This document shows positions 5,426-63,576 of a stretch of DNA of 64,000 nt, piece by piece. Source of the DNA: Azorinus chamasolen (Eukaryota; Mollusca; Bivalvia; Cardiida; Solecurtidae). Within the stretch, counting starts at the first letter, position 1, and the number at the start of each line of letters is the position of its first letter. A program made the position numbers and the translations under genes. The DNA is taken from contig OY755239.1 of the NCBI GenBank assembly GCA_963576725.1, positions 57,815,453 to 57,879,452 of the forward strand, read 5' to 3'. The notes under the pieces were generated by a model. That model was given only the letters and a program-made list of their open reading frames with translations. It made no database searches and had not been told where the DNA came from.

Positions 5426-5641
5426 TAACCCATTCCTTCATAAAACGTGTTTAAACGCATGTATAGGAGCCGTCTGATCAGGGTCTACTCTGTTTCCTAA
5501 CGGAATTGGATATATTCTGTTTCTTTACTTTCTAAAATGGCAACAATGCTCCACCTTCCATATTCCGTTATAACTATTTTGTCCATGAATATTCAGTTGG
5601 TATTGAAATTTGGAATAAACATAAAACAGGGAAAGGGTTGA
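5426..5641. mobile_element. TTAA-1 MITE, left arm deleted
   Basis: Keeps the left end (AACCCATTCCTTCAT), the right hairpin arm TAGGAGCCGTCTGATCAGGG, the right body (GTCCATGAATATTCAG) and the right end CAGGGAAAGGGTT. Compare the intact copy at 42261-42510. Confidence 0.8.
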
Positions 5642-7060: not shown

Positions 7061-7130
7061 TCCGTATTTGTCCTACAAACAACGGTTATATAAAAACGGT
7101 AAAATAGAAAGACGTGTGTTTCTATGCCAG

Positions 7131-7755: not shown

Positions 7756-7784
7756 CATTTGGATCCGTCCAATTGTGACTACGT

Positions 7785-7927
7785 CCGATTGAATAAACCT
7801 TTTGAGAAACAATTGACCTAGTTTCACACAACTTGGATTCTGATGAGATACCGAGTTACTCGTTATCATCTGGATCCAAGCTGTGTGCAAATGCGAGTCA
7901 GGTCGCGCTCAGTGGGATATGGATTAA
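7785..7927. mobile_element. TTAA-3 MITE, partial
   Basis: Half-copy with the hairpin CTTGGATTCTGATGAGA ... ATCATCTGGATCCAAG and right end GTGGGATATGGATTAA. Its last TTAA is shared with the next element. Confidence 0.75.
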
Positions 7928-8138
7928 CCCTTTCGCTGCCAAAGTCTGTCGTCTGCTAACTTTGTCGTCTGTTACAAATTTGTATTTTTTTTTATTTTCT
8001 TCATTTTTGTTTAAAAAACATAGTAACAGTAACAAACAGTTTGAATCCTGATGAGACGCCGAGTTACTCGGCGTCTCATCTGGATCCAAACTGTTTGCAT
8101 TGTAATCACCGATCCGGCATTCGCAGCGAAAGGGTTAA
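7924..8138. mobile_element. TTAA-3 MITE, complete
   Basis: TTAACCCTTTCGCTGCCAAA at the left and GCAGCGAAAGGGTTAA at the right. The central hairpin arm is AAACAGTTTGAATCCTGATG with apex CGCCGAGTTACTCGGCG. TTAA target duplication and CCC-starting ends are piggyBac-like. Confidence 0.92.
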
Positions 8139-8230: not shown

Positions 8231-8307
8231 TATCACCGTAGTAATACTTATATTATGAGTATTAATCCCAAATATCACCGTAGTAATACTTATATTATGA
8301 GTATTAA
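8231..8307. repeat. 42-bp tandem repeat carrying a TTAA site
   Basis: TATCACCGTAGTAATACTTA begins at 8231 and again at 8273. Unit 1 keeps an intact TTAA at 8262-8265. In unit 2 the same TTAA (8304-8307) is occupied by the following MITE. Confidence 0.9.
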
Positions 8308-8518
8308 CCCTTTCGCTGCCAAACTCTGTCGTCTGCTAACTTTGTCGTCTGCTACAAAATTTCATTCTTTTGATTTTCTTCATTTTTGTTTAAAAAATAT
8401 AGTAACAGTAACAAACAGTTTGGATCCTGATGAGACGCCGAGTTACTCGGCGTCTCATCTGGATCCAAACTGTTTGCATAGGTAATCACATATCCGACAT
8501 TGGCAGCGAAAGGGTTAA
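8304..8518. mobile_element. TTAA-3 MITE, complete, with paralogous empty site
   Basis: Nearly identical to 7924-8138. Both ends read CCCTTTCGCTGCCAA (the right one inverted, with one change). The hairpin of about 31-bp arms has apex GCCGAGTTACTCGGC. The flanks GAGTA-TTAA and TTAA-TCCCAAATATCACCG rejoin exactly as in the neighbouring unoccupied 42-bp unit. Confidence 0.95.
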
Positions 8519-10654: not shown

Positions 10655-10882
10655 TTAACCCAGTCCCTCATAGGCGATTTTTAGATCATACCTCTTTGAA
10701 TAAATCTACCGAAAAGGAGCATTAACCAGAGAAAAGGAAAATTTTATAATTTTGTAGTTTGAAACCGTTGTGATAAATAGAGCATTTGCTCCTATAGGAG
10801 TAAATGCTCTATTTATCACAATGGTTTCAAGAACTGACTATTACAGTGGCGTAGAAAAGGCGTATTTATGGAGGAAAGGGTT
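10655..10882. mobile_element. TTAA-2 MITE
   Basis: Left end TTAACCCAGTCCCTCATAGG. The centre is a strong palindrome, arms TTGTGATAAATAGAGCATTT with apex GCTCCTATAGGAGT. Orientation is opposite to the copy at 30341. The right end is truncated at GGAAAGGGTT. Confidence 0.88.
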
Positions 10883-11671
10883 CAAGCAAGCAAAAAGGTT
10901 TAACAAAGAGTCAGTATGTATAAGACATCGACTAAGATACAATAAATCCGCTTGCATTTTGTATCAGTTTTCTTGGGACACAAAATACACCGTACTGTCC
11001 CAGAGAATAGTGTAGGTACAGAATTTTCTGGAAACCTTATCACGCTGTGATGGATGTTTGGTAATTCTGTAAATTGAAATTGAATGGTACTTATGGACCA
11101 TTTCACGGTCAGTTTCAGATTCAATGGGATATTTACTGGCAATCCAATTAGACTGTAATGAATCGTCTCTCTCGTTAGCCGGTATAGACGATCTGTAAGA
11201 AAAGAACGCAGTTTAACGGACCGGGGATTTTGATAATTAAATCGCTTGGTTTACGCTAAGTATCATGGGCAGACAAATTGAGGTTGACAGTTAAGCAATA
11301 ACGATAAACTACGTCAGTTACAGATACTTTGATAAGACATTGATAGAAGGCTTGCGTTAGGTCATATATCAAGGTAAGTCAAGCAATGCCACAGGAATTA
11401 GTGTGGCATTAAATGCATGGCGATTTTAGATAATCTTGAACACGATCGGAGCAATTGAAAAATATGTGTACATGTATTCAAATACTAAAGGCATCATGTC
11501 CGAACTAATCACAAAGGCTGGTGACAAAACATAGTTTGATGGAGAAATAATTGAGCTATGTTTGAACTTATCTGGGCCTCTGAAAATTATATGAATAGAA
11601 ATATTTCAACCTCTCTACACCAAGGATTTAGCAAATACAATGAAGACTGAAAATTCAGATATGTTTAGGTA
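10883..11671. other. noncoding, no feature recognised
   Basis: No repeat family from elsewhere in the window and no coding signal. Confidence 0.45.
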
Positions 11672-13531: not shown

Positions 13532-13534
13532 ATT

Positions 13535-23321: not shown

Positions 23322-23538
23322 CCGACTCACATTTGCAAACAGGTTTGATCCAGATGAAACACCGAGTGACTCAGATTCTCATCTAGATCAGACCTGTTTG
23401 ACAATCTGTCAATCATTTCTCAGTAACTTGTTTCATGATCTTTGGTCAATAGTTTCTCAAAAGGTTTGATCGAGTCGGAAGTAATCAAAAGTACACCGGT
23501 CCAAAATTGAGCAGACGTTCTTTTTTACAGTGGGTTAA
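23322..23538. mobile_element. TTAA-3 derivative
   Basis: Hairpin CAAACAGGTTTGATCCAGAT ... ATCTAGATCAGACCTGTTTG, tail GTCAATAGTTTCTCAAAAGG, ending GTGGGTTAA, which is shared with the next element. Confidence 0.8.
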
Positions 23539-23782
23539 CCCTTTCCCTGATTGATATTCATGTAGGAAATAATGACGTCATAAATATTAATAAGATTTGT
23601 TTTATAATGGCATATGAACACATGACATTTTGGCTCAGGCAGAAGCTGTAGAATCATATCAATATTACACCATAAGCAAACAGAGCAGGTCCTGATCAGA
23701 CGGCTCCAATAGGAGCCGTCTGATCTGAGTCTACTCTGTTTGCAGATGCGTCAAAATGCGCTTACAAAAGGGAAAGGGTTAA
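23535..23782. mobile_element. TTAA-1 MITE, complete
   Basis: TTAACCCTTTCCCTGATTGA and GGGAAAGGGTTAA at the ends. Hairpin GCAAACAGAGCAGGTCCTGA with apex GGCTCCAATAGGAGCC. Confidence 0.93.
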
Positions 23783-24923: not shown

Positions 24924-25152
24924 TTAAGCCATTTGCTCCCAGTGGGTTCTTCCATGTTTATATATTTGATTAGTCCAATTTTTGTCTAAGGGGTGCCTGG
25001 TCTAAATTTTCAATTTCGTTTTGTTTTATATTGAAATTCCTATCAGCAAACAGTGTAGACGCTTGTCAGACGCCGCATGATGCGACGTATGATCAGAGTC
25101 TACACTGTTTGCCTACGTCCCATATATGGGATCGTGGGAGCAAATGGGTTAA
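24924..25152. mobile_element. TTAA-6 MITE, complete
   Basis: Ends TTAAGCCATTTGCTCCCA and TGGGAGCAAATGGGTTAA are inverted repeats of 18 bp with one or two mismatches, unlike the other families. The central hairpin GCAAACAGTGTAGACG ... GAGTCTACACTGTTTGC has the arm type of TTAA-1, with apex GCCGCATGATGCG. Confidence 0.9.
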
Positions 25153-42260: not shown

Positions 42261-42510
42261 TTAACCCTTTCCCTCATATAAACGTGTTTTCACGCATTTG
42301 CAAACAGAGTAGACCCAGATCAGACGGCTCCTAGAGGAGCCGTCTGATCAGGGTCTGCTCTGTTTGCTAAAATAATTTGATAGACCCGTTTCTTTACTTT
42401 CTAAAATGGGTACAATGTTCCACCTTATATACTTCATTATATCTATTTTGCCCATGAATATTCAGCAGGTATTGAACTTTGGAATGAACATAGAACAGGG
42501 AAAGGGTTAA
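42261..42510. mobile_element. TTAA-1 MITE, complete reference copy
   Basis: TTAACCCTTTCCCTCATATA and AACAGGGAAAGGGTTAA. Central hairpin of about 32-bp arms, GCAAACAGAGTAGACCCAGA and TCAGACGGCTCC, apex GGCTCCTAGAGGAGCC. The two sides outside the hairpin are not complementary beyond the ends: left ACGTGTTTTCACGCATTT, right CCATGAATATTCAGCAGGTA. TTAA plus CCCTTT ends suggest a non-autonomous piggyBac element. Confidence 0.95.
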
Positions 42511-43668: not shown

Positions 43669-43886
43669 CTAATTACCCTAAATATTCGGACAGAAACACT
43701 AAAGAAAATATGGTAGACCCAGATCAAACGACCTTCTGAAGAATCCGTTTGATCAGGATCTACACTATTTGATACTATTTCTGTCTAATCTACAGTGTTA
43801 ACTTATCAAGATGATGCCAAGTGGAATTACAAGCCGATATAATGGGGAGCTGGAGTTTCAAAATACTAAGGATTAGTAGGATATGC
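43669..43886. mobile_element. TIR-L element
   Basis: Left end CTAATTACCCTAAATATTCG. Hairpin GGTAGACCCAGATCAAACGA ... CGTTTGATCAGGATCTACAC. The right end (AAAATACTAAGGATTAGTAG) is decayed. The better copy is at 61849-62066. Confidence 0.72.
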
Positions 43887-49800: not shown

Positions 49801-52800
49801 AACCATTAATTAAATAATCATATTTTGTAGTAGTATATAATCCGTGCCGTTAATCCAAGATATCTATCATAATAACGCGTGTTCAGTTTTACTATAATAA
49901 TTGCCTGCCTTTTGTATTCTAAGTATATTAACAATTATGGTACTGCAATTGAAATTAACCTACAATGGATTGACTATTGAATTTGACCGAAACTCATCTA
50001 TATATGTCACAGACTAGTCAAAATATTGTAAGCACTGAAGATAGCTTTAAAATAAATCGCTATGCTTACTATGGATATTAAATTACAACATCAACATTAT
50101 TATTCAATTGCAGAGCTGATATAAGAGTGCCCTCCATGTTCATCCCAGCTTCAAGGCTTGCCACATTGACAACGTTGTCTCAGGACGTAGAGCCAGAGTA
50201 TGTGGCAATGTCTGCAGACGGTACTAAAGCCTGGGTTACACTGCCGGTATTGACACATTTGTCATTGAAGACTTTCTGTGGCTGCGACCTTGACGCGAAA
50301 TTATTAATGTTTTGCTTGAGTCTGAGATCATTCTCAAGCACCTACTCGTAATTGGTCACATTTTGAGCTTGCTTAGAATACAGATACTTTAGAATGATCT
50401 CAGACTCAGATACAAAGTTTTATAACATAGGACCCTTAGTTCTCTTTTGTATATATGGTCACATGCACAACACATTGAACGTTAAATTGGTTCGCAATGG
50501 TACAATACCTATCCGTAACTAAAATGGTTAAACGATGGTTACAAATTAGCTAGTGATTAACCTCATAATCTCCAGACCATATACATGTATACATACTCGT
50601 ATTTGACCAAGTTGCACACGGATATGCCGTATGTAATATTCTATCATATCTATAAAATAAAAGTGAGACATATACCTAAATGCACAAGACCATTCTTAAC
50701 TGTCGTATTTGGAGATACCATATACTTTCATACATTTACTCCTACAGTATCTAAGTTTGTTTTGCAAATGATTTGCTGACATCGCTTTTAGTGGTTCAAT
50801 CATTCGACTGATTTTTAATAGACCCCGCTTGTTCATTTGTGTTAGGGTTTAGTGGTGATTCAGGTCTCAACCTTTATCCGCACACACCGCGACTTGACAA
50901 GCATTTGCAAACGGCTTAGATTCACACAAGACATCGTGTACATTGGTGTCTCACCAGGCTCCAAGCTGCTGGACACTCGGTCAGGAGTTTCCAAATGCTC
51001 GTTCGAATCAGAAGTACAGAAAAAACTCTGTAAACCGGCCACAAAATTCTGTTAATTAGTTGGTATTTAGGGCAGGTGGCTGTTTAAAGCAATGTGAAAG
51101 TAAAACAGAACGCTCCTATAGAAGCGTTCTGTTTTACTTTCACCTTGCTTGAAGCAGCCACCTGTCTTTAACACAAAATGCTTGATGTAAATTAATGGCC
51201 GTTATAGAGAGGTTTTTCTGTAGCCACAGTTACACAAGATCCAAATGTGAGCAGATCACATTTTGCACAGAGAGATAATAGTTAAAACTGATATACATGC
51301 GGACGCAATGAACACATCTGGTCAATGCAAATAAGGCGAACCCGAACGACAATTTGCTTGTAAAAACAATGTACATGTATACCTGACAAGACACTGGTTT
51401 ACATGTAAAGGCGTTGGCTGATCTTGGTCTGTGATTCAGAAAAATATCGATTATTCGAACACTTAAATACGTATCATTATCGATCTTTAAGACAGAAGGC
51501 AGCTTAATGCATGGTGAAAGTCATGCACTGCTTGACTTTCAACATGCGTTAAGCAGCCACCTGCCTAAAATTGTCTAAATTGTCTAAACTTCGAATAATC
51601 GAGATTTTACTACATATACATGTACTATCCGTAGAATGGGTTTCTTACAAAAGGGATCGTTGTATTCAATTACTACAATAGTCCTCAACGGCCAATATAT
51701 GTTTCAGGAAAATAATGCTATAGCTGAAATCAATGTTAACAATGCCGTCGTGTCGAACATATACTCACTGCCACTAAAGGACTGGTCACAGAGTGGGATA
51801 GATACTAGTGATAGAGATGGAGGTGAGACATACTATGCATTACTCTTAACCCATTCCCTATAGGCTACATTTAGGCCGTTCCCGCATTAGTTGTTTTAGA
51901 CAATCTTCTTTATTTCTCCACCAACACCGTATGTTGTGACTACTCTTTAGAATCGTCTCGTCGAAGAGAGGTAAACGATAGCGTTTTGTCATATGTATTT
52001 ATTGCACAATCGTTTTGTCCCAATCCATCACGAGTATGGCCGTTTTAGACCTATTTTGTAGGAATTTCACGTCGGCACTGGCTACGGCTTAGTCGGAATG
52101 TATCAAAAGTTACATTATTTTAAAAGTACAATGTCCGAGCTTCACGTTCGTACCAAACATTAGTGGTTATTCCATTGGGTGTTATTTCGAATCGGTTGCG
52201 TAATCATCGAATTGGTAGTTGGACCCCTTGTGTATAATATAGCGCTAAATCGACCCAATCAAATTTTTGTTTACTTTTTAGACCATCTAGACCCACGAAA
52301 TGACCCCCTGTTGGTCACAAGATAGGGTTTGGCGGAGGAATGACGACTTTAGTACGTGACTACGCACGTTTATCTGTCGCTCTGCTTAACCCTTCTCTTG
52401 CTGAATTTTAAAACACATATCTCCTTCTTTACCCATGCCCTGTTGTATAATAACATATATCTTCACGGTGTACAAGTATTTCGCTGTGCAATCACTGCTC
52501 TGGAGTGCACTGGTTGCACAATCAATTTGTAAATAGTGCAGACCCTGATGAGACAGCTCCTGCAGGAGCTCTCTCATCTGGGTCTTCACTATTTACAGGT
52601 AGGTATATTGACGTGAATAGCAAGCGAAGGGTTAATGTTGAAAAATCGAATGACCTATACTTGTTCAATAATGATAATGTATAATTTGGGAGAGAGAGGC
52701 TTTGAGATGACAAACAGTGCAGATTTTGACCAGAGGGCTCCTCTATGAACCCTCTGGTCTGGATATATACTATTTACAAACGGCATCCAAAGTTCTATGT

Positions 52801-55800
52801 CGACTGTCTAATGTAATGGCGTACATATTTTATCATTTATTACTAGGTGTTCATAGACGTATGTATGCAGGTCTTAAGTCATTACGACAACCGACAGTCA
52901 TCAAAGCTTTGGATGTGAATGGCAAGACGTTTTTATTCACCGCTGATGAAGGCGCCAAGAAACTCTACACCAGGAGTATCCATGGATTCGACTGGACCGA
53001 TGCTTCCAACGGAAGGACACTTAGTAAGAATAAAACACCCATCACAATTAAGCCCAGCACACTAAGCCACGTTGTGGATAACAATCTGCCCAAATTTGGA
53101 TCGTGTGCACTTCCGATTCAATAATGCTTTTGCGAAACTTATTATCAGAATCTCAAACAGCTTGGAACCAGATGAGACGTCGAGTTACTCGATGTTTTCA
53201 TCAGGATCCAAATTGTTTACAAATGCAAGGAACATTGCATACATAGAAGAATAAGTGTCAAAGAGCCCTCTCATCTGGGTCTACACTGTTTGCAAAGGAC
53301 ATTAGTAATTCTTGTCCTGTACTGAACATATTAAGATAGTTTTTTAACCAAAGGCAGTTATTTGAAGTTGTAGTTTTCGAAGATGTCTTTTCAGTTAATT
53401 CACATTAATTGCTTAAAGCAGTTAATGTAATTTATTCTAACCAGACGCTATTATGTTAGATTAATTTTCTTAATAGCATTTGCTCAAACTGAACAAAAGA
53501 TAGCGATTTTTTATCTATGATATTGTTAGAAACGACACTTGAATCCTTAGTAGACGCGTGTATACATCTGGGACCATATTAGCCAAGCTCCTTGGGATAA
53601 ACAATATAATCCTAATTGCACCCAGAGCTACAGAACTATATGTACCAATGTCGTTATTTCCCCCATCAAACCCTTTACAATATAATCCTAATTGCACACA
53701 GAGCTACAGAACTATATGTACCAATGTCGTCATTTCCCCCATCAAACCCTATACTGTGACCACTTTTTAGAATCGTCCCAAGGAGACGATTCTAAAGAGT
53801 GGTCACAGTATAGGGTTTGGTGGAGAAATAGAGGAGCTTTTCTTGAAAATGTTTAAATTTACGCATCTTATCTGGACCTTCTATATACGGTAAATCCATT
53901 ATTTTCATCAAATCAAAAGGATACTCTATATTAAACGAATAATACTCACTTTGAATTAGCATTCTAAAAATCATGGATTGACAAACTACTCACCAGTTTT
54001 ACTACAATCCTAAACAGTATTTTTCTGGTTTAAATGTTAAAACATTCTTGGGTGACTTTATAAGTATGAATTTATTAAATATTTGTATATGTGTCTGCCT
54101 CGAAACTAGATCGCGAATATATCGTCCGAATTCATACATGATTTTGATACATATTTCTCCCACATTCTATTGCCAAACAGCGCATACCCACACAAGGTGT
54201 CTGACCAGAGTTCTCACTGCTGCAATTGCAAACAGCTCAAATCAGATCGTAGTATTTGGCGTCATGTCAGATATCGAACTGTTGGACTTTAGTTAACCCA
54301 TTTATTGATATTGACCCCTTTTGAAGTCTCTGTAAAAGGAAGGCACTTTTAGAAACAATTGTTTATCACAATGGTTTCAAAATTGCACAGTTTAAAATGT
54401 TCCTTTTTTCTAGTAAATGCTCCTTTTCAGTATATTTATTCAAAGAGGCTGGGTTAAAAATAGACTATGAGGAATGAGGGAATTGGAACTTTGTTCATAC
54501 GATACGACTACTCAAATGAAGTCTGATTTTGGCTTTTTAAAACAGATGGAAGCTCAATGTAGGACAAAGGTGATATAGAAATCCCCTATAGGATTGGAGC
54601 TTCCTGTATCACCTTTGCCTTGATTTATTTCTTCCTACCTATGTATTATTTTATATTCCTACCTATATTGTATTGTTTTATTTTCAAACCTAGATATCAT
54701 TTAACCCTTTCCCTTATGTAAGCGCTTTATGACGCATTTGCAAACAACAGTATACCCAGATCAGACGGCTCCTATAGGAGCCGTCTGATCAGGGTCTGCT
54801 CTGTTTGCTTATGGTGTAATATATATCTGATTCTACAGCTTCTGTTTGAGCAAAAATGCCATGTGTTCATATGCCATTATAAAAAATAATCTTATTAATA
54901 TTCATGACGTCATTATTTCCCTCATGAATATTCATCAGGGGAAAGGGTTAATGTTGCGACCTAGATATTACAGTAACACCCTCCTAAACTGGACGTTTAA
55001 TTTTAGTATAAATATCCGTTTTGGAGACAGGTTGCAATTTAATGCAGGGAGAAAGTTATGCAGAAAGACTTTCACCATGCATTAAGCAGCCATCTACCTT
55101 AAAGTTTCTTAATTCTTCTCTACTAGAATCCCAGTTAAAGGTATTTTTGTATTTTATTTTCCTTCCTAGACATTATTTTATTTCCTACCTAGATATTATT
55201 TAATTTCGCTACCTAGGTATCAATGAATTTTCTACTTATATATCATGTTACTTTCCTACTTAGATATCTTTTAATTTTGCTACCAAGTATTACAGTAATT
55301 CCCCTTTAATGCGACCACCTAAAAGAGGTATAATTCTAGGAGTTAGGTGCAGATGGTAGCTTAATGCAGGAGAAAAGTAATGCAGAAAGCTCCTATACAT
55401 TACTTTTGTCCTGCATTAAGCAACCACCTGTTTATAACGACACCCATGTTTATTATTTAAGTGGTCGCATCAGAGGGGTTCTACTGTATTTGATTTTCTT
55501 ACTGAAATATTATTGTATTACCCAGACATAAATATAATTTGATTTGTTTTACCTAGGTATTATTTTATTTTTGATTTTACTATTTAGGTACTCAGATCGA
55601 CGTCTCCCAGTCTGCACTTCAGACAAATGCAGCCAATGATGAGTTTTTAGGTATAGTTGTATGTTTATGTCCCCTTTATACATATATGCATACTGCCTGT
55701 ATCATATATAGATGCATTGTCATGGTTTTGCAAAAAGGGTAGACTAAGACCAAACGAATTCTCAAGGAACCGTTTGAACAGAGTCTACCCTGTTTGCTTA

Positions 55801-58800
55801 TGACATTATATAAAGCTCATTCTACAGTCTCTATCACGCCTAAAACGAAACGCATGCTTTCTTAACGCATAATAAAAATTCTGACAATTAATATTCTTGA
55901 TGTTACCATTTCTTGCTCACCAGGCAATGATTAAATAGTATAGTTTCTTGTGAGTGATTGTGGAACGGTGGATCTATGAAAAACTGCCATTCAAATAAAT
56001 GGAATGTTCCTTCTCTAACACATGTGCTAGCTGAAATATTGAAAAGTTGCAAACAGAGTAGACAATGATAAGAGCAATTCGATCAGGGCCTAATTTGTTT
56101 TCTTATTGAAATATAAAGATATGATTCTATAGTTTCTGCAAAAGCCTAATGATCATGTGATCGTATAGTTATTATTATAAAACACCAGCTTATATATATT
56201 CCTGATGCCATTATTTCTTACATGGATATTAATAAGGTAAATAGTTAGTACGTATCTTGTAAACAAACACATACTGCATTCGTAATTATTGAAAACGTCA
56301 CGCGCCTAGATGAGAACTATACACGTAGTAACTTGGCGTCTCATCATGATTCCAGCTGTTCGATGCCTAAACAATTATTTTTTCAAAAGCTTGCTTGAAA
56401 TAATGGGAAAACATACACCGCAATATAGTATACGTTAGCATGCATATTTACAAAGGGATAAGGTTCGCCGGACAGCTTGTTCAACCTTTATCATGCTGCG
56501 GGTGTGATTACCTATGCAAACAGTTTGGATCCAGATGAGACGACGAGTAACTCGACAAGATCCAAACTATTTCATGATCTGACCATGAACGCGTTGTTGA
56601 AAGGAAGGCGATAACAGTTTCCACTAATACAGTAAAATCTCTCTAAATCGGACGTTAAATTTGGTATAAATATCGGTCTTGGAGACAGGTGGCAGCTTCA
56701 TGCAGGGTGAAAGTCATGCAGAAAGCTCCTAGAGGAGCTTTCTGCATGACTTTCACCCTGCATGAGGCAGCCACCTGCCTAAAATTATCTAAATTCTTCT
56801 CTACTAGAATTCCGGTTTAGAGGGGTTCTACTGTACACGTTTTTTCCCAGCCGGCTAACGTTAAAAGATGCCATGTTCATACATTGGTACCTATAAAAAG
56901 TTTCTACTGTTATCTGCACATTCTACATTGTAGCATTATGGTTTATTACAAAGTTAGTTTCATACCAGTAATATTTCTTAACATGTTAAACTGATGGTAT
57001 CACGTTTTAGTGTCTCTTTGCACGCACGTGTGAAGGCATAAAACGGCAGTATAGTAAATCAACAAGGGCAGAATTTCGATATAATTTATTACATTTACGC
57101 GTGTTTGTACTTCCAATACATATTAAGGAAACTAAAATTAAATCTATAGGGTTCTTACATGTCTTTGAAAAGTTGTCTGAGCTCGAATATAAGATATGTT
57201 AGGTACAGATATGTACATGTAAGCCATGTGTGATCAGTTTAGATCGATATTTATAACTAGGAAAAATCTAGGGAAATCCTAGTGAAATCTTCAAACCGGT
57301 GTTTTAAAGTACTGAATTCAAAAACAGTGAATTTGAAGTAAACTTTGATATAAGCAAATTGTATAGTAAAGACACTCTAACGTGACCACCGAAACATACT
57401 TAATTGTGGTCATTAAAGGTTAGTGGCAGCCTAATGCAGGGTAAGTGTTAATAGGAACGCTCCCGGGAGAGCTTTCTGCATTACTTTTATCCTACACTAA
57501 ACGACCACCTGCTGTTGTAAATACAAACGTGTATTCAGTAAGCGTTCGACAAAGAGATATTTGCTATAATTAGTAACAAATATTTATTTTGGCCCATCTG
57601 ATGTCTCACTAACATGTCCTATTTTCTCACTGGTATGGTCTTAATAATACATTTATGATACAGCTAATGCCTACTGATATGCTTAACTAGGGTGTCGCTG
57701 GTACACATGTGACCCAAATGTCCTCACTAATAAGGCATATCTAATGCCTCGAATAAATGGCCCAACTAAATACCTCACTAATACACGCATGACCCCACTA
57801 CTTTCACTACTATGGCTTAACGAATGGGCAACCAATATAAACCGACTAATGCCTCATATACACGTATGACCTCAAATACAATCACTAATATGGTATAACT
57901 ATAGCCTCACTAATACGACCCGATTAATGTTCCACTAATATGACCCAACTAATGTCCCATTAATATGACCCATCTAATGCCTCTCACTAATATGACCCAA
58001 CTATTGTCCCACTAATATCACCCATCTAATGTCTCACTAAAATGACCAATCTAATGTCTCACTAATGTGGCCAAACTAATGTCCCACTAATATGACTCAT
58101 CAGATGTCTCACTAATATGACCCAACTAATGTCTCACTAATATGACCCATCTAATGTCTCTCACTAATATGACCCAACTAATATTCCACTAGTGTGATCC
58201 AACTAATGTCTCACTAATATGACCCAACTAATGTCTCACCAATATGACCCAACTAATATTCCACTAGTGTGACCCAACTAATGTCTCACTAATATGACCC
58301 AACAAATGTCTCACCAATATGACCCAACTAATGTCTCACTAATATGACCCAACTAATATTCCACTAGTGTGACCCAACTAATGTCTCACTAATATGACCA
58401 AACTAATGTCTCACCAATATGACCCAACTAATATTCCACTAATATGACCCAACTAATGTCTCACTAATATGACCCAACTAATGTCTCACTAATATGACCA
58501 AACTAATATTCCACTAATGTGACCCAACTAATGTCTCACTAATATGACCAAACTAATGTCTCACCAATATGACCCAACTAATATTCCACTAGTGTGACCC
58601 AACTAATGTCTCACTAATATGACCAAACTAATGTCTCACCAATATGACCCAACTAATATTCCACTAATTTGACCCAACTAATGTCTCACTAATATGACCC
58701 AACTAATGTCTTACTAATATGACCCAACTAATGTCTTACTAATATGACCCAACTTGTGTCTCACTAATATGACCAAACTAATGCCTCACCAATATAACCC

Positions 58801-61800
58801 AACTAATATTCCACTAGTGTGACCCAACTAATGTCTCACTAATATGACCAAAGTAATGTCTCACCAATATGACCCAACTAATATTCTACTAATATGACCC
58901 AACTAATGTCTCACTAATATGACCCAACTAATGTCTTACTAATATGACCCAACTAATATTCCACTAATGTGACCCAACTAATGTCTCACCAATATGACCA
59001 ACTAATGTTCCACTAATATGACCCAACTAATGCCTCACCAATATGGCCAAATTACTGTCTCACTAATATGACCCAACTAATATCTCACTGATTTGGCCCA
59101 GCTAGTTCCTCACTAGTATTACCCAATTAATTCCCAACTAATATGACCAAGTTAATGTTCACTGATATGACCCAACTAATGCCTCACTAATACGACCCAG
59201 CTAATTCCCCACTAATATTACCCAATTTATTCCCCGTTAATATTACCCAACTAGTGCCTCACTAATATAACTCAACTAACACCCCACTAATATAACTCAA
59301 CTAATACCTCACTAATAGCCCCAGCTAATGCCCCACTAACATCACTAAACATATCTAAACTACTGTCTCGATAGTATGACCCTTCCAATGTCTCACTTAC
59401 ATGGCCCAACTCATGCCTCACTAATATAAAGCAACTAATATAAAGTGCAACTAATGCCCCATTAACACACGTATGGTCCAATCAATGTCGTACTGATATG
59501 ATCCAGATAATATTGCCTAACTAAATCCTCACTAATACCGCCTAATTAATACCTTATTGATGTGGCCAAAGTAATGTATCACTATGAATATGTTGATGTA
59601 ATAAGAAACACTATGTGTTTACATTACTGGATAAAGAAGTATATACATGTATCTATAAACTGATACATGTATGATCTAACCAATGACTCGCTAATATGAC
59701 CAAACTAATGTCTCACTAATACGGTCGAACTAATGTCTCACTAATATGGTCGAACTAATGCCTCGCTAATATGGTCGAACTAATGTCTCACTAATACATT
59801 TATGGCCTAAGTAATGCTTTACAATACTAACATCATGTACAAGAAATCTTTATCCGAAGATCAGTGAAACGGTGCAAATCATAATTGTGGTCAGAGACAA
59901 TTTTTGCTTCTTTCAACGTTTTGTTTAAATTATAAATATTGTACTTTATCAGCAGGACGAGATATTAATAGGTTCCAAATTAAAGGCCATTCCCATACAG
60001 TCTTTGATAAATGTCGTTGATATTTTGTCAATGAACCCTGTATTGCAACATGATAACCAACACCGAACTGTACGAACAGTGTAGAGCAAGATCATAACCC
60101 GCTTTGTAAAGTGGCATTCTTTGAGCCTTTGCACCGTTGGCCACCCCCACAAAGTATGTTCTATATTCCTGACTTGTGAAATAGTGTAGAACCTGATCAG
60201 GCGACTAATTTGACATGCAGCGACTTAGCTGCGTCTACATTGTTTTGATCCTTTATTTTATAAATCTCCATGTAAGAAATAATAGCGTCATGAATATATT
60301 AACCCATTCCCTCATACTGACGACTTTTGACGACTCTGTAAAAGTTACTTTATGAAACCATTGTGATAAATAGAGCATTTACTCCTATGGGAGCAAATGC
60401 TCTATTTATCACAATGGTTTCCAAATACAAAATTATAAATTTTTCCTTTTCTCTAGTCAATGCTCCTTTTCGGTAGATTTATTCAAAGAGGTTGTATCTA
60501 AAAATAGCCTATGAGGTAATGGGTTAATTGGAGTTTGGCCATGGCAGAAACTGAACAATCAGATCTATATAATGATATAAGCAAACAGAGCCGTCTGATC
60601 TGGATCTACTCTATTTGCAAAGGTGTAGAACAACGTATCTACGGCATAAAGGGTTAAGTATAGAAGATATTCTGTATTATTGACAGGTAGACTTGAAGTG
60701 AGCAGCATTGACGGGAAGAATGCCTTTAATCAAAAGTATATGGAGCTGACAGCCTTTGGTGGGCGAGGCTTCTCTGTATGGGATTCCACTGACTTCCGAG
60801 CACCTGTCTTTGACAGTGATGGCTCTCTAGAAGAATATATGGAGTCATTTGATAAATCTGTCTTTAACAGTGATTACGTCTCCAACACCGCCACCTATCA
60901 GTCGCCGGAGAGTCTTAGGGACACGGCGTCCAATCAACAGGTATAATACGTACCAATAGCATGCATTGCGTTCGTGGTGTACAGCTATACTAAATATTTT
61001 CCCTCATATAAACGCATTTCCACTGCCTTGCAAAATGAGTAGGGCAATATCAGACGGTTCCTATAATAACATCAGGGTTTACACTATTTGCTGTATACAT
61101 AATTATGCCATTATAAAAAATGCTAATCAATATTCATGATGTCATTATTTCTCGTATGGATATTGAACAGGGGAAAAATAACCCTTTTTATCATGAATAT
61201 TTCGTGGGAACATAGGATTTGTTTTAGCTGTGCAGAGTCGGTAGCATCGATTGTTGATAAACAAACAGAGCAGACCCTGATCACACGGCTCCTATAGGTC
61301 TTCTCTGTTTGCAAAGGCGGGAACAAGCGTTAAGCATTTGTCTCATGGTTATCCATGTAAGACGTAATTAAATCACGATTAACAATCATATCAATTTTGT
61401 AATTGTACATTATCACAGGATTATTTGTCCATGCCGTAATCATACTGTATAATCAGATCTATTAGCAAATGGCACAGCCCCTGATCAGACGGCTTTGTGT
61501 GCTCGGAATTCACATCTTCCTGTCCTATTTCTATGCATAACCCATTTATTAAGGAAACCCCGTCCAGATAGTACTTTGGAACCCACCCGTCGTTCATGTA
61601 GGGGCACAACAAACACAATATTTGCTGGAATAAGCACTTGATATTTATGAGTTCATCAAATAGTAGTACAAAACCCGGTCAGAGGGCTCCTTCAGGAACC
61701 CTCTTATCTGTGTCTACGCTCTTTGCCTCTGTACTTTTTAACTGACATGGGGCACTATTGGGTTAACACTCTACTATACTTAAATCTGTTTTAATTATCC

Positions 61801-63576
61801 GTGCGTACAAACATACTGCACTGATGGCGTTCGGAAACATTCAAATGCAATACCTAATTATCCTAAGTATTTGGACAGACAACCTGAGGAATACAGTGTA
61901 GACCCAGATCAAATGACTCCTGACCGGATTGTTTGATCAGGATCTGCATTATTTGAAGCTATATCAGCATATAATGCATGTATGGTGATTTATATTTATG
62001 CAGTTTTACAAACCGGTTAACGGGAGAGACTATATGTCCGAATACTTAAGGTAATTAGGGTATGGGTTTTATGCTAGAAACAAGTTGATTTGCTAACCGC
62101 TTTTGTCGTTGATAAGAACAGATAAGAAAGTTACTCAAATAAATGTACTCCTTTTCTTTTGCGCAGGCCAGCATGTCGTCTTCAAAGACGTAGACCAGTG
62201 TTTCCACATAATACTTGATCAACAATAATTAAATAAAAAACTATGACTGTAACCCTTTACTGCATATAAACGCTTCTTAACCCTTCTCTTGCTGAATTTT
62301 AAAATATATGTCTCCTTCTTTACCCATGCCCTATTGTATAATTACATATATCTTAACTGTGTACAAGTACTTCGCTGTGCAATCACTGCTGTGGAGTGCA
62401 CTGGTTGCACAATCAACTTGTAAATAGTGCAGACCCTGATGAGATAGCTCCTGCAGGAGCTGTCTCATCTGGGTCTTCACTATTTACAAGTAGGTATATT
62501 GACGTGAATAGCAAGCGAAGGGTTAATGTCATTGTAAATAGAGAAGATACAGATCAAACGACTCCCGCTGGAGCCGTCTAACAAAGGTCTGGTCTGCTTG
62601 CTTGTGGACTTTTATTATAGATCGGATTCTACTGTTTCTGCCATGAACAAATAATTTCTTTTTATACGCCATTATAAACAGCAAGCTTATAAATATGTAT
62701 ACGAATATATAAACTATTTCTTACATGGATATTAACCCTTGCAGAGCGCGACACGAATCACTAATGTCCCTTGTAAATAGCGTAGACCCAGATGAGAGGG
62801 TTCCTAGAGGAGCCCTCTCATCAGGGTGTTGACTGTTTGTCGTGTTATATTTTTCTTTAGAAAAATCCCCGAAATATTCACCATAAGCTTGACCTCTTTG
62901 AATTTTGGAATATTTCATTTGAACATTCAGCGATGTAAGGGTTAACCCTTTCCCTTATGTTAGTGCCTTTTTACAGATCTGCAAACAGAGTAGACCGCTT
63001 CTTTAGGAGCCATCTGATCAGTGTCTGCTCTGTTTGCTTATGGTGTAATATAGATCTGATTCTGCAGCTTCTGTCTGGGCCAAAATGGCATGTGTTGATA
63101 TGCCATTATAGAAAATAATCTAATTAATATTCATGACGTCATTATTTCCTACATTGTACTGAATATTTATCAAGGAAATGGTTAATGAAGTAAGGGTTAA
63201 TGCAAAGAGAATGTGTATCTCTACAGAGGTATTGTAGTTAGCACTATTTGTGAACTTGTTAGACTGATTTTCCAATTTAAAAGCACAAACACACTTAAAT
63301 CACAGCCAGCCTATTGCAGGGGGGATAACTCTAAAGTTGAAATATTTGCCAGGGAGCTGCAATTAGCGGCCTTGATGTAAAGGACGACAATGGTACGATT
63401 TATCTGGTTGTTGGTACCAAGTCCACAGGGACGCTCTATCTGTACACAGTGGACACCTCCAGCGGGCAACCAGCACCAACGTTCCAGGCCATTCACAGAG
63501 ATGGACTAAAGGATTTACCATGGATGGATTTGTATAGAAATCAAACTGCTGGAGACCTGTATATATCTGATATTGG
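46648..63576 (+). CDS. msp130: MSP130-like cell-surface glycoprotein gene, exons 1-9 (3' incomplete)
   Basis: Spliced model 46648-46840, 48646-48885, 49571-49775, 50114-50246, 51708-51822, 52847-53023, 55588-55650, 60687-60940, 63353-63576: 1,604 coding bases, about 534 residues. Every intron is GT-AG and junction phases 1,1,2,0,1,1,1,0 agree on both sides, with no stop. Exon 1 gives a signal peptide (MWAYRLIFAAACLQMALG, likely cut before Tyr19). The rest follows the 'choice-of-anchor I' beta-propeller-like domain shared by MSP130 and bacterial secreted proteins, with landmarks DPEGTLSII, DVEPEYVAMSADGTKAWVTL, TSDRDGG, FLFTADEG, GRLEVSSIDG and AFGGRGFSVWDS in order. MSP130 proteins are extracellular, membrane-anchored glycoproteins linked to biomineralisation in sea urchins and found in shelled molluscs; the precise function here is inferred. 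The C-terminus and any anchor signal lie beyond the window. Confidence 0.9.
46880..47086. mobile_element. TA-1 MITE in intron 1, GCGACC-end type
   Basis: CTGTAAAACCCCGCTAATGC ... TTAGCGGGGTTTTACTGTA; the first 20 bases pair almost perfectly with the last. Inner hairpin GCAGAAAGCTCCTAGGGGAG. Begins 39 bases after the exon 1 donor. Confidence 0.93.
47087..47582. other. intron 1, no feature recognised
   Basis: AT-rich; nothing recurring. Confidence 0.5.
47583..47979. mobile_element. TA-1 MITE split by TTAA-4
   Basis: TACAGAGAAACCCCGATAGT (TTCGAAC-end type) ... ATATCGAGTTTTTTTTTACTG. The hairpin right arm GTATCCTGCATTAAGCAGTC is interrupted exactly at its TTAA by the element at 47661-47906. Confidence 0.9.
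47661..47906. mobile_element. TTAA-4 MITE nested in TA-1, reference copy
   Basis: TTAACCCTTTCACCGTCAAT ... TGCCATCGAAAGAGTTAA. Hairpin GTCGCTGATCAGACGCCGCC / GGCGGCGTCTGATCAGCGAC with a TTTTCAA loop. The left side carries GTCGCAAAAATGCACCACGA, the right GGATTGCAGACGACAATTAG. Confidence 0.95.
47980..48367. other. intron 1, no feature recognised
   Basis: An 85-codon frame at 48142 is hydrophobic but has no motif or splice signals. Confidence 0.45.
48368..48536. mobile_element. TTAA-1 MITE, right part
   Basis: CTGATCAAGGTATGTTCTGT, CTGATTCTACATTTTCTGCC, end AATAGTGAAAGTGTTAA. Confidence 0.78.
48646..48885 (+). CDS. msp130: msp130 exon 2
   Basis: Acceptor TATGTTTTCTCAG, donor GACAG/GTACAC; phase 1 at both ends. 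Encodes STPHLLHGIDIADPANPQLL, then VPQSVAICGDEVAVGLAS and HVRFYKRFTKGAGETDITI. ID-x-x-DPANP is the strand pattern seen at the first blade of the family. An in-frame extension upstream (RKIIYVFSA) exists but crosses the acceptor and is not needed. Confidence 0.88.
48974..49219. mobile_element. TTAA-4 MITE in intron 2, right end worn
   Basis: TTAACTCTTTCAGCGCCAAT. Near-perfect hairpin GTCCCAGGTCAGATGCCGCC / GGCGGCATCTGACCTGGGAC, right AATTTGGCGTCAAAAGGTCG. Confidence 0.9.
49220..49570. other. intron 2, 3' part
   Basis: No repeat recognised; ends in the exon 3 acceptor GTATGCCAAACAG. Confidence 0.5.
49571..49775 (+). CDS. msp130: msp130 exon 3
   Basis: Enters in phase 1 (completing Val) and leaves in phase 2 before GTTACT. 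Encodes VGPHPSSLHYTDDCAYLMVP, NEGEAGKDEGGRYTDPEGTL, SIIHGEQTGNPSLRHVDFQD. NEGE plus DPEGTLSII corresponds to the ANEGEP ... DPEGSVSII block of bacterial choice-of-anchor I proteins, the best local diagnostic. Confidence 0.93.
49776..50113. other. intron 3, shortest and free of MITEs
   Basis: 338 bases, AT-rich, no repeat recognised. Ends TTCAATTGCAG. Confidence 0.7.
50114..50246 (+). CDS. msp130: msp130 exon 4
   Basis: Enters in phase 2, leaves in phase 0 before GTATTG. Encodes ADIRVPSMFIPASRLATLTT and LSQDVEPEYVAMSADGTKAW VTLP. EPEY-x-A-x-SADG-x-x-AWVTL is strongly conserved between bacteria and animals in this family. Confidence 0.94.
50300..50430. repeat. palindrome F, decayed, in intron 4
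   Basis: TTGAGTCTGAGATCATTCTC ... AGAATGATCTCAGACTCAGA around GAGCTTGCTT. Partner of 30697-30840. Confidence 0.8.
50431..50899. other. intron 4, no feature recognised
   Basis: AT-rich; a 64-codon frame here has no support. Confidence 0.45.
50900..51014. mobile_element. TTAA-3 derivative
   Basis: GCATTTGCAAACGGCTTAGA ... GGTGTCTCACCAGGCTCCAA, tail ACACTCGGTCAGGAGTTTCC. Confidence 0.68.
51015..51222. mobile_element. TA-1 MITE in intron 4, CGGACAC-end type
   Basis: Hairpin GTGAAAGTAAAACAGAACGC, apex GCTCCTATAGAAGC, right TATAGAGAGGTTTTTCTGTA. Left end worn (TACAGAAAAAACTCTGTAAA). Confidence 0.87.
51437..51612. mobile_element. TA-1 MITE in intron 4, TTCGAAC-end type
   Basis: CAGAAAAATATCGATTATTC ... 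GAATAATCGAGATTTTACTA. The hairpin apex is lost (GTCATGCACTGCTTGAC). Confidence 0.83.
51708..51822 (+). CDS. msp130: msp130 exon 5
   Basis: Acceptor ATATGTTTCAG, donor GTGAGA; phase 0 in, phase 1 out. Encodes ENNAIAEINVNNAVVSNIYS, LPLKDWSQSGIDTSDRDG. Directly continues VTLP into ENNAIA, matching the family text VTLQENNALA, which fixes this junction. Confidence 0.93.
51846..51880. mobile_element. TTAA-2 end fragment in intron 5
   Basis: TTAACCCATTCCCTATAGGC followed by TACATTTAGG, then unrelated sequence. Confidence 0.65.
51911..52386. mobile_element. hairpin-H element split by a 344-bp insert
   Basis: Left arm CTCCACCAACACCGTATGTT ... AGAATCGTCTCGTCGAAGAG (51911-51968). The remaining right arm GTCACAAGATAGGGTTTGGC GGAGGAATGAC starts near 52315. 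The sequence between is GC-richer and does not recur in the window. Confidence 0.75.
52386..52635. mobile_element. TTAA-5 MITE in intron 5, reference copy
   Basis: TTAACCCTTCTCTTGCTGAA ... AGCAAGCGAAGGGTTAA. Hairpin TGTAAATAGTGCAGACCCTG ... GGGTCTTCACTATTTACA with apex GCTCCTGCAGGAGC. Almost identical to 62277-62526, so both may be young. Confidence 0.95.
52708..52785. mobile_element. hairpin of a further TTAA-type family
   Basis: ACAAACAGTGCAGATTTTGA, CCAGAGGGCTCC, then GAACCCTCTGGTCTGGAT. Ends not identified. A similar hairpin lies at 61650-61730. Confidence 0.65.
52847..53023 (+). CDS. msp130: msp130 exon 6
   Basis: Acceptor TTATTACTAG, donor GTAAGA; phase 1 at both ends. Encodes VHRRMYAGLKSLRQPTVIKA, LDVNGKTFLFTADEGAKKLY, TRSIHGFDWTDASNGRTL. 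NGKT-[FY]-L-x-TA[DN]EG is a family landmark. It follows DRDG-G as expected. Confidence 0.94.
53116..53245. mobile_element. TTAA-3 derivative in intron 6
   Basis: AATGCTTTTGCGAAACTTAT, GGAACCAGATGAGACGTCGA, CATCAGGATCCAAATTGTTT. 53266-53297 keeps another family's right arm (GAGCCCTCTCATCTGGGTCT). Confidence 0.75.
53298..53601. other. intron 6, no feature recognised
   Basis: AT-rich; no recurring sequence. Confidence 0.45.
53602..53753. repeat. 76-bp tandem duplication
   Basis: CAATATAATCCTAATTGCAC starts at 53602 and 53678. The copies differ at only a few positions. The second runs into hairpin-H. Confidence 0.9.
53730..53827. mobile_element. hairpin-H element at end of duplication
   Basis: CCCCATCAAACCCTATACTG, GACCACTTTTTAGAATCGTC, then the inverse to GGGTTTGGTGGAGAAA. 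The duplicated unit ends in CCCCATCAAACCCT, the first bases of the hairpin. Confidence 0.88.
53828..54292. other. intron 6, no feature recognised
   Basis: 82-codon frame near 54048 without motif; nothing else. Confidence 0.45.
54293..54483. mobile_element. TTAA-2 MITE in intron 6, hairpin partly lost
   Basis: TTAACCCATTTATTGATATT, TTATCACAATGGTTTCAAAA, AATGCTCCTTTTCAGTATAT, GACTATGAGGAATGAGGGA. Confidence 0.82.
54541..54618. mobile_element. TA-1 hairpin fragment
   Basis: GATGGAAGCTCAATGTAGGA ... TCCTGTATCACCTTTGCC. Confidence 0.6.
54701..54951. mobile_element. TTAA-1 MITE in intron 6, complete
   Basis: TTAACCCTTTCCCTTATGTA ... CAGGGGAAAGGGTTAA. Hairpin with apex GGCTCCTATAGGAGCC. Right body CTGATTCTACAGCTTCTGTT and TTAATATTCATGACGTCATT marks the second TTAA-1 subfamily. 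Confidence 0.95.
54969..55139. mobile_element. TA-1 MITE in intron 6, right end lost
   Basis: TACAGTAACACCCTCCTAAA, GGAGAAAGTTATGCAGAAAG, AAGCAGCCATCTACC, ACTAGAATCCCAGTT. Confidence 0.8.
55291..55488. mobile_element. TA-1 MITE in intron 6, GCGACC-end type
   Basis: TACAGTAATTCCCCTTTAAT ... TCAGAGGGGTTCTACTGTA. Hairpin arm GGTAGCTTAATGCAGGAGAA. Apex shortened to AGCTCCTATACATTAC. Confidence 0.9.
55588..55650 (+). CDS. msp130: msp130 exon 7 (63 bases)
   Basis: Acceptor TTTTACTATTTAG, donor GTATAG; phase 1 at both ends. Encodes TQIDVSQSALQTNAANDEFL. Short, but its phase and the join to exon 8 (DEFL-GRLEVSS, like family LGRL-V) support it. A second AG ten bases inside (ACTCAG) would break the frame. 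Confidence 0.82.
   Translation, partial: VLRSTSPSLHFRQMQPMMSF
55720..55930. mobile_element. TTAA-1 relative, diverged, in intron 7
   Basis: GCAAAAAGGGTAGACTAAGA, CCGTTTGAACAGAGTCTACC, TTAATATTCTTGATGTTACC. Ends decayed. Confidence 0.65.
56045..56250. mobile_element. TTAA-1 relative, diverged, in intron 7
   Basis: GCAAACAGAGTAGACAATGA, GATATGATTCTATAGTTTCT, CTTACATGGATATTAATAAG. Confidence 0.62.
56310..56590. mobile_element. two TTAA-3 fragments
   Basis: 56310-56400 (GTAACTTGGCGTCTCATCAT) and 56516-56575 (CAAACAGTTTGGATCCAGAT ... GATCCAAACTATTTC). Confidence 0.65.
56628..56835. mobile_element. TA-1 MITE in intron 7, CCGGA-end type, reference copy
   Basis: TACAGTAAAATCTCTCTAAA ... TTTAGAGGGGTTCTACTGTA. 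Central hairpin with about 45-bp arms (CAGGTGGCAGCTTCATGCAG, GGTGAAAGTCATGCAGAAAG) and apex GCTCCTAGAGGAGC, almost without mismatches. Confidence 0.95.
56836..57361. other. intron 7, no feature recognised
   Basis: No recurring repeat or coding signal. Confidence 0.5.
57362..57568. mobile_element. TA-1 MITE in intron 7, decayed
   Basis: TATAGTAAAGACACTCTAAC ... ACAAAGAGATATTTGCTATA. Hairpin apex CGCTCCCGGGAGAGC. Confidence 0.82.
57590..59815. repeat. 25-bp minisatellite array with 75-bp higher order
   Basis: Unit GACCCAACTAATGTCTCACT AATAT. In 58180-58980 three variants alternate: TCTCACTAATAT, TCTCACCAATAT and ATTCCACTAGTGT, often giving a 75-bp period. Both edges (57590-58000, 59050-59815) are more diverged, as expected for unequal-exchange turnover. 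A non-array stretch lies at 59575-59680. No open frame of note. Confidence 0.95.
59816..60247. other. intron 7, no feature recognised
   Basis: A minus-strand 67-codon frame (59949-60152) has no recognised motif. 60180-60240 has a weak hairpin scrap of TTAA-1 type. Confidence 0.45.
60248..60657. mobile_element. TTAA-1 MITE split by TTAA-2, next to exon 8
   Basis: Left TCCATGTAAGAAATAATAGC and right TTGGAGTTTGGCCATGGCAG form one TTAA-1 body. Hairpin left arm lost, GAGCCGTCTGATCTGGATCT kept. Right end GGCATAAAGGGTTAA lies 29 bases before the exon. Confidence 0.85.
60299..60527. mobile_element. TTAA-2 MITE nested in TTAA-1, complete
   Basis: TTAACCCATTCCCTCATACT ... GAGGTAATGGGTTAA. Palindrome GATAAATAGAGCATTTACTC with apex ACTCCTATGGGAGC. 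Same orientation as 30341. Confidence 0.95.
60687..60940 (+). CDS. msp130: msp130 exon 8
   Basis: Acceptor GTATTATTGACAG, donor GTATAA; phase 1 in, 0 out. Encodes GRLEVSSIDGKNAFNQKYME, LTAFGGRGFSVWDSTDFRAP, VFDSDGSLEEYMESFDKSVF and NSDYVSNTATYQSPESLRDT. LxAFGGR-x-FS-[IV]-WD is the most diagnostic motif of the family. VFDSDGSLEEY matches the LVFDSGDQFEQ region and FNSD the FNAD region. Confidence 0.95.
60990..61336. mobile_element. two TTAA-1 copies in intron 8, decayed
   Basis: 60990-61180 (CCCTCATATAAACGCATTTC ... GAACAGGGGAAAAATAAC) and 61181-61333 (GCAGACCCTGATCACACGGC ... TCTTCTCTGTTTGC, end AAGCGTTAA) lie back to back. Confidence 0.75.
61470..61765. mobile_element. hairpin fragments of TTAA type
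   Basis: 61478-61495 (CCCTGATCAGACGGC) and 61660-61730 (CCCGGTCAGAGGGCTCCTTC ... AACCCTCTTATCTGTGTCTA), end GGGTTAA at about 61765. Confidence 0.6.
61849..62066. mobile_element. TIR-L element, reference copy
   Basis: Left ATACCTAATTATCCTAAGTA TTTGGACAG and right GTCCGAATACTTAAGGTAAT TAGGGTA are inverted repeats of about 28 bp. The hairpin GTGTAGACCCAGATCAAATG ... TGTTTGATCAGGATCTGCAT has the arm type of TTAA-1. The ends are unlike any TTAA family and no TTAA flanks it. Confidence 0.82.
62248..62735. mobile_element. TTAA-1 MITE split by TTAA-5
   Basis: Left GTAACCCTTTACTGCATATAAACG (shortened: TTTACTGCATATAAACG) and right TGTAAATAGAGAAGATACAG, CGACTCCCGCTGGAGCCGTC, CGGATTCTACTGTTTCTGCC belong to one TTAA-1 copy. 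Its right end is cut at the next element. Confidence 0.8.
62277..62526. mobile_element. TTAA-5 MITE nested in TTAA-1, complete
   Basis: Same ends and hairpin as 52386-52635, apex GCTCCTGCAGGAGC; only a handful of differences. Confidence 0.95.
62733..62945. mobile_element. TTAA-7 MITE in intron 8
   Basis: TTAACCCTTGCAGAGCGCGA ... CAGCGATGTAAGGGTTAA. Hairpin TGTAAATAGCGTAGACCCAG, ATGAGAGGGTTCC, apex TTCCTAGAGGAGCC. The ends pair over only about nine bases. Confidence 0.87.
62942..63185. mobile_element. TTAA-1 MITE, abutting TTAA-7
   Basis: TTAACCCTTTCCCTTATGTT ... AAGGAAATGGTTAA. Second subfamily like 54701, with a shortened left hairpin arm. Shares TTAA with its left neighbour. Confidence 0.9.
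63353..63576 (+). CDS. msp130: msp130 exon 9 (last in window)
   Basis: Acceptor AATATTTGCCAG, donor GG/GTAATA; phase 0 in, 2 out. Encodes GAAISGLDVKDDNGTIYLVV, GTKSTGTLYLYTVDTSSGQP, FQAIHRDGLKDLPWMDLYRN and GDLYISDIG. Corresponds to the PEGV-x-x-G-x-x-G-[KR]-TYAF-x-GLER-x-GG-[IV] region, but the bacterial PEPEG and LER residues are replaced. Reading through the donor would stop at once (TAA at 63578), so an exon beyond the window is needed. Confidence 0.85.

Follow-up and report, generated by a model that had tools for sequence, protein, structure and literature searches.

The question raised by this locus is how short transposable elements with different terminal sequences come to carry one and the same hairpin. 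A preliminary description of the window (the whole stretch of 64,000 nucleotides that was analysed, 36% GC, eukaryotic in appearance and, to judge from gene fragments and the style of its repeats, probably molluscan) had proposed that unrelated MITE families, served by two transposase types, have a central palindrome in common. The pattern is real and unusual, and one hairpin recurring almost equally far inside elements whose ends differ suggests assembly from interchangeable parts.

The hairpin is real and abundant. Near-perfect palindromes (score of at least 14) numbered 44 in the window, against 1, 0 and 0 in three Markov shuffles. With a core profile built from 21 palindromes (GCAAACAGwGTAGACCCAGATsAGACG, apex, complement), 64 non-overlapping core copies, whole or partial, were recovered in the 64 kb (E < 0.05), and separate searches (E < 1e-3) yielded 20 TA-1, 8 TTAA-2 (T2) and 5 H-family hairpins, partial copies included. 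All four hairpin families together occupy 6,542 bases, 10.2% of the window; at about a tenth of the sequence, they are relevant to repeat annotation and genome stability. The exact 20-base core arm was found at two sites (42300 and 53274) and, with up to three mismatches, at 36 sites including those two; the exact apex GCTCCTATAGGAGC occurs once (54768), or nine times with up to one mismatch, 54768 included. The sites previously given at 42261, 24924, 10655, 56628 and 6856 are present, and TIR-L lies at 61853. An arm said to be common to TTAA-1 and TTAA-6 is exact in TTAA-1 (42300) and matched only partly by TTAA-6 (25046).

In the TTAA families the order of parts is TTAA, a proximal end of 35–37 bp, the hairpin, about 95–135 bp of family-specific DNA, a distal inverted repeat and TTAA. 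The core hairpin is 67–73 bp long with little or no loop, and its orientation is fixed. Thirteen TTAA elements, 214–259 bp long, were extracted whole, and in all 13 the base of the hairpin lies 35–37 bp after the TTAA; the palindrome earlier described as central is subterminal. Subfamily S1 comprises S1a (TTAA-1 of the preliminary description; 42261..42510, plus strand, 250 bp), whose hairpin (42300–42367) begins 35 bp past the TTAA, and three S1b elements. These are 54701..54951 (plus strand, 251 bp, hairpin 54740–54808), 23535..23782 (minus strand, 248 bp, hairpin 23676–23743) and 62942..63200 (plus strand, 259 bp as extracted), which has lost part of one arm (hairpin about 62983–63037) and whose ends agree poorly (7/16), so that the element may in fact stop at a closer TTAA (63185). 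S1c (28559..28666, plus strand) has a proximal end of a different subtype (28559–28598), the core hairpin (28599–28666) and an S1b-like distal side. S2 is represented by 39293..39507 (minus strand, 215 bp, hairpin 39401–39467), and S2b, which has the S2 hairpin and S3-like ends, by 7924..8138 (hairpin 8032–8098) and 8304..8518 (hairpin 8411–8477), both of 215 bp and on the minus strand. S3 includes 34050..34295 (minus strand, hairpin 34185–34257) and 47661..47906 (plus strand, hairpin 47700–47769), each of 246 bp, and S4 includes 52386..52635 (hairpin 52528–52597) and 62277..62526 (hairpin 62418–62489), each of 250 bp and on the minus strand. S5 was extracted at 62732..62945 (plus strand, 214 bp, hairpin 62772–62841) and S6 (TTAA-6) at 24924..25152 (minus strand, 229 bp, hairpin 25046–25112).

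Judged by eye, the S2 element at 39293 is nested in another S2 core (39293–39540), which it entered at an apical TTAA; half of that core stands at 39471. An S2-type core is also translated within five proteins from other short contigs, and since the residues outside the core fit the S2 distal flank as well (by eye), the hairpin family seems not to be confined to this contig. Viral contigs gave no exact-pattern match to the core-arm, T2-arm or apex-spanning pattern, and the S1a element gave no match to phage records by distant blastn.

Most TTAA proximal ends start with TTAACCCTT, and those of S6 and T2 with TTAACCCAT. Among the 64 cores, 31 have a match of at least 7/9 to TTAACCCTT at 36–46 bp from the core edge, with a peak at 41, a distance that includes the TTAA and uses a slightly different core edge than the 35–37-bp offset. 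Random placements gave a mean of 3.8 such matches and a maximum of 11 in 200 runs; counted as matches, 33 lie in the interval, against 5.8 predicted from the rest of the flanks. The preliminary description had suggested a scan for cores devoid of transposon ends, and free-living cores are not evident: of the cores with E < 1e-10, the 27 best, the TTAACCCTT-like sequence (at least 7/9) lies at 36–46 bp in 19, two belong to TIR-L (43704 and 61889), three have a decayed end by eye (8559, 16554 and 23335) and three are undecided (9301, 52712 and 55730).

An A.A mismatch is found mid-stem in 18 of 28 aligned cores; the position is paired in five and takes other states in five. In 28 copies oriented by a TTAA-like end (at least 7/9), one of which (14207, with T) was later judged wrongly oriented, the counts of A, T, G and unscored bases at this marker were 18, 4, 2 and 4 in the proximal arm and, read on the same strand, 14, 3, 3 and 8 in the distal arm. 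A constant offset and orientation, together with an inherited mismatch, are what descent would produce if all these elements went back to one ancestral MITE without exchange, selection having kept the hairpin while the ends diverged with their transposases.

The ends of the TTAA families fit such descent in part. TTAACCC(T/A)T is common to most of these families, and CG stands at transposon bp 19–20 in 12 of the 13 representative ends, as aligned by hand. In a longer, hand-picked list (35 proximal rows, of which 42702 is misplaced and 32487 has no core), CG at positions 23–24 was found in 21/35 proximal and 0/26 distal ends, with a window CG frequency of 0.027. The shared start and the CG relate the TTAA families to each other at the level of end signals; wholly unrelated ends, as first claimed for this set, therefore cannot be maintained, and "unrelated" was too strong a word.

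TTAA is present at both ends in 13/13 extracted elements, partly by construction, since distal ends were picked by a TTAA-containing pattern; T2v has TTCA on one side. Bases 5–20 of the two ends agree at 10–15 of 16 positions in 12 of the 13 elements, the exception being 62942, and past base 9 only 2–10 of 11 positions agree. In place of CCC, S6 has GCC, and the S3 element at 47661 has CTC at the distal end. A CCC start of the inverted ends is diagnostic for piggyBac-like elements. Judged by TTAA flanks and matching ends, S1–S6 and T2 are putative piggyBac-like MITEs. The minimal left end of piggyBac, LE35, is 35 bp long, and is described as bound by the main transposase domains over its first 16 bp and by a dimer of the C-terminal domain over bp 17–33 (PMC7351741). 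The proximal end has the length of LE35 and one conserved CG, so the hairpin would start about where the transposase footprint would stop; the length match is suggestive. A CRD-type palindrome in the proximal end (bp 15–37) scored 48 against 43.5 in shuffled sequences, with 99 of 1000 shuffles reaching it. S6 alone stands out (p = 0.004), and for the 35-bp ends in general the score was not significant. No transposase was found among the six ORFs scanned in the window.

TIR-L has the same core between other ends. These are 25 bp long (CCTAATTAyCyTAAGTATTyGGACA) and unlike the TTAA ends. One copy (61853..62060, plus strand) has the core hairpin at 61889–61956, 36 bp from its left end; a second (43667..43881, plus strand, core hairpin 43704–43772) has more diverged ends, with 2 and 5 mismatches to the end pattern. 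TA lies outside both ends in 2/2 copies, one extra terminal base being allowed (by eye). In both, the core is at offset 36 and oriented as in the TTAA families, with the mid-stem mismatch marker on the same side. That TIR-L carries the core and is not TTAA-flanked is thus borne out by two copies, with probable TA flanks and different ends, and the element is presumably of Tc1/mariner type. Probable TA flanks and different ends on the same core speak against descent from a single ancestral MITE.

To compare the parts separately, 20 elements were split into blocks and aligned locally against 200 shuffles (z scores). Between families the core was alignable and the rest mostly not. The core of S1 at 42261 gave z values of 12.7–30.6 with S3, S4, S5, S6 and TIR-L, and of 0.1–9.5 with S2 and S2b copies; for TIR-L the values were 20 in the core, −1.1 in the proximal and −0.4 in the distal block. 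For most pairs of families the proximal and distal blocks scored no better than shuffles, apart from isolated values of up to 3.8 (S2_39507 with S5, proximal, 3.8; S1_42261 with S2_16387, distal, 3.7; S3_47661 with S4, proximal, 3.4; S1_23782 with S6, distal, 3.3).

The S2b elements combine the S2 hairpin with other ends. Against the two S2b copies, S2_39507 gave z values of 36–44 in the core, −0.9 in the proximal and 0.9–1.4 in the distal block, and outside the core S2b against four S2 copies gave −1.1 to 1.1 (proximal) and −1.4 to 2.2 (distal). Of 67 core sites, the two S2b copies have 62 and 63 in common with the S2 consensus, and the S2b core at 8411 agrees with S3 at 47/66 and with the S1 consensus at 46/67. 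In the end comparison, in which S2b is effectively represented by the 8138 copy and S2 by a consensus made by eye, the S2b proximal end agrees with S3 at 13/21 positions (4/5000 shuffles) and with S2 at 9/21 (1258/5000). By single copies, S2b against S3 gave proximal z values of 0.4, 0.6, 0.8 and 4.9 and distal values of 2.8–3.6; the likeness is moderate, the distal values being no higher than the background extremes between otherwise unlinked families. If one ancestral MITE had diverged without exchange, S2 and S2b would have kept nearly all core bases and nothing detectable outside them, and S2b_8411 and S1 far fewer core bases, so that constraint would have to vary greatly.

T2 shows the reverse combination. 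The elements 30341..30568 (plus strand, hairpin 30392–30466, apex CTCCTAAGGAG) and 60299..60527 (plus strand, hairpin 60350–60424) have a hairpin different from the core, with an S1-like proximal end in the former, and T2v (10655..10884, minus strand) has the T2 hairpin (10758–10831) and the T2 distal side with a proximal end of the S1c subtype. The end consensuses of S1 and T2 agree at 17/21 positions while their hairpin arms differ; by single copies, the T2 proximal blocks gave z values of 8.2 and 6.4 with S1_42261 and of 1.3–3.2 with the other two S1 copies. The ends of S1c and T2v agree at 19/21 (z 10.7), those of S1 and S1c at 14/21 and those of T2 and T2v at 15/21, and in T2v, a single copy, diagnostic sites split 6:2 and 5:2. 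S1-like ends joined to another hairpin again count against uninterrupted descent, with which a weak likeness of the S2 and S4 ends (12/21, 72/5000 shuffles) is in keeping. Weighing both sides, we consider an origin from one ancestral MITE without exchange unlikely.

Within subfamilies, proximal, core and distal identities were 0.97/0.94/0.92, 0.82/0.99/0.91, 0.75/0.84/0.85, 0.87/0.90/0.89 and 0.95/0.93/0.87; the three blocks diverge similarly, and a mutational cold spot alone therefore does not account for the core. End and hairpin relationships conflict. The proposal of one hairpin in unrelated families holds in that the core is alignable while other sequence mostly is not and in that end and hairpin groupings conflict (S2b, T2 and T2v), and fails in that the TTAA ends are related.

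The pairing of the stem is conserved. In 28 cores chosen as well alignable, 85.4% of cells pair and 22 of 33 pairs are changed on both sides. The covariation score was 0.356, against 0.160 (sd 0.011) in shuffled and at most 0.095 in slid alignments; the shuffled value is inflated by relatedness among the copies, and the same sequences had served to define the structure. Symmetric double changes within subfamilies numbered 16, against about 3 expected (observed 5, 6 and 5; expected about 1.1, 1.6 and 0.4), an excess that could stem from selection, from arm-to-arm correction or from sub-subfamilies not recognised as such.

Arm-to-arm correction by template switching would equalise the arms, making their symmetry mutational and not selected, and could coexist with an exchange of modules. 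It would account for the excess of complementary double changes within subfamilies. Against it stand the mid-stem A.A mismatch, which persists in S1, S2, S4, S5 and TIR-L copies, and the single changes within subfamilies (45, 46 and 11), which outnumber the double ones (7, 9 and 6); on balance such correction appears somewhat improbable.

The hairpin could also be a neutral hitch-hiker, the commonest repeat, captured into any element by ectopic repair and without function. Hairpin chimeras and rearrangements do occur: by eye, an S1 distal arm is joined to an S2 distal arm inside the hairpin at 27648–27696, and the core at 5432 has lost one arm. Random capture predicts neither one offset and orientation nor maintained pairing, and the number of symmetric double changes is at odds with it, although subfamily structure may inflate that number; we hold such a passive origin to be quite unlikely.

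Conservation as RNA, in a small-RNA precursor or a structured transcript, would suit the covariation seen in a stem of some 33 base pairs. The mismatch cells comprise 52 G-T and 36 A-C, nine of the G-T coming from one inherited column, and by column and subfamily the counts are 40 and 32; the lack of a clear strand preference favours selection on DNA over selection on RNA, short of proof. At the gathering threshold, the sole Rfam match in the window, of SECIS type, lies away from the hairpins. A role as RNA is accordingly judged very unlikely. The match itself (SECIS_1, 35898–35962, 35.7 bits, gathering 35) follows a 126-aa ORF without Pfam match (the pair spanning 35484–35962) and is perhaps due to chance or a pseudogene remnant.

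The relation of TA-1 and T2 to the core is confined to the apex. TA-1 (56628..56834, plus strand), which we take to be pogo-like, has a central hairpin of its own at 56683–56780 with the apex GCTCCTAGAGGAGC. Half-apices of the GCTCCTA type are common to S1, T2 and TA-1 (7/7 and 6/7). The preliminary description had named chance similarity of the apices as the comparison to be made, and they proved more alike than that: by simulation, post hoc, three lineages at the observed level of at least 6/7 have a probability of 0.0002–0.0014, depending on composition, and at 5/7 of 0.058. The simulation counted six lineages; since 54565 matches TA-1, five would be fairer. A core common to piggyBac-like elements and the pogo-like TA-1, as earlier envisaged, gives way to a shared apex only, for TA-1 and TTAA-2 alike, and this sharing may reflect descent, convergence or function. 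The hairpin offset is about 47 bp in T2 and about 54–56 bp in TA-1, so the 35-bp offset is not universal. The S2, S3 and S6 hairpins keep the arms but have other apices, each changed symmetrically as one block (e.g., 39404, 31493 and 8033 have the S2 apex); the apex thus appears replaceable as a block, and we know of no mechanism for such a replacement.

Further features were recorded in the window. The H-family hairpin at 29808..29902 (plus strand; further copies at 27854–27948 and 53735–53827, boundary uncertain) is unrelated in sequence to the core. In two copies the flank towards a presumed end is preserved, and the distance to that end is about 34–36 bp; the possible ends are GATAArrTGCGTA. 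On the minus strand, 17548–21000 contains reverse transcriptase and endonuclease ORFs in two open frames, resembling a non-LTR retrotransposon. A 25-bp tandem array of about 57 copies (57906–59796, consensus CTCACTAATATGACCCAACTAATGT) is followed by a smaller array.

The reading that we prefer, with a probability of about one half, is that these are mosaic MITEs between which hairpin and end modules have been exchanged, combinations with the hairpin beside a working end having been amplified because the hairpin helps mobilisation. Exchange may have taken place by template switching from one hairpin to another, hairpins numbering about one per kb, while DNA was replicated or gaps were repaired, and combinations keeping the hairpin beside a working transposase-binding end would then have been amplified. 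The hairpin might help mobilisation by DNA bending or extrusion, as an inner site for a transposase or host factor, or by fork stalling that couples excision to copying. A wider claim seems doubtful, namely that the hairpin serves more than one superfamily of DNA transposons as a cis-acting module open to exchange, raising mobility beside a transposase-binding end and being recruited repeatedly by new transposase systems while MITE families swap ends around it. If the mosaic reading is right, breakpoints should fall at the base of the hairpin, and the hairpin should measurably influence excision or reinsertion; a fixed hairpin distance from different ends offers a direct handle on how MITEs arise and outgrow their parents.

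Several known systems have parts of this architecture. In bacterial REP-type elements, too, the hairpin and the cut site are a set distance apart, and the stem is irregular. They use a Y1/HUH transposase acting on single strands; the transposase class differs, as the inverted repeats and the TTAA or TA flanks found here point to DDE transposases. PALTTAA elements are by definition palindromic as a whole and flanked by TTAA; here the hairpin is palindromic, and not the whole element of 214–259 bp. In titles and abstract openings among the matches listed, with subscription journals and Repbase reports outside the scope, no description was found of the present layout, in which one hairpin keeps its distance from ends that differ. 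A survey of bivalve transposons reports that MITEs occupy a considerable share of the genome, and its main text contains neither "hairpin" nor "palindrom" (PMC10294476).

The nearest printed precedent found is the PALTTAA2/PiggyBac stretch of Caenorhabditis, six pieces totalling 71 bp that occur in two repeat families of C. elegans and 16 of C. briggsae, with mosaic repeats described (PMC1431705). A stretch shared across repeat families and the presence of mosaics are as here; compared by description only, the account of that stretch gives no hairpin geometry, fixed offset or sharing with TA-flanked elements (PMC1431705). The bivalve pearl/HINE elements, non-autonomous Helentrons, are described as modular, with a conserved palindrome near one end or near a repeat junction, resembling the present ones in this; their palindrome is short and accompanied by subterminal repeats, tandem repeats or microsatellites, whereas the present elements are inverted-repeat elements flanked by TTAA or TA (PMC5139131, PMC7492417). 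Tc1/mariner- and pogo-like MITEs have TA flanks and matching ends in common with TA-1 and TIR-L. From these TIR-L differs in carrying the TTAA-family core at nearly the same offset; the hairpin of TA-1 is a separate one that resembles that core in the apex only. The ends themselves agree with those of piggyBac-like MITEs in TTAA flanks, CCC-type and asymmetric ends and a proximal end of about 35 bp like LE35 (PMC7351741). The piggyBac end palindrome binds the CRD, and a general counterpart in the proximal ends here did not reach significance; unlike piggyBac, the present elements have a hairpin of 67–73 bp directly after the proximal end.
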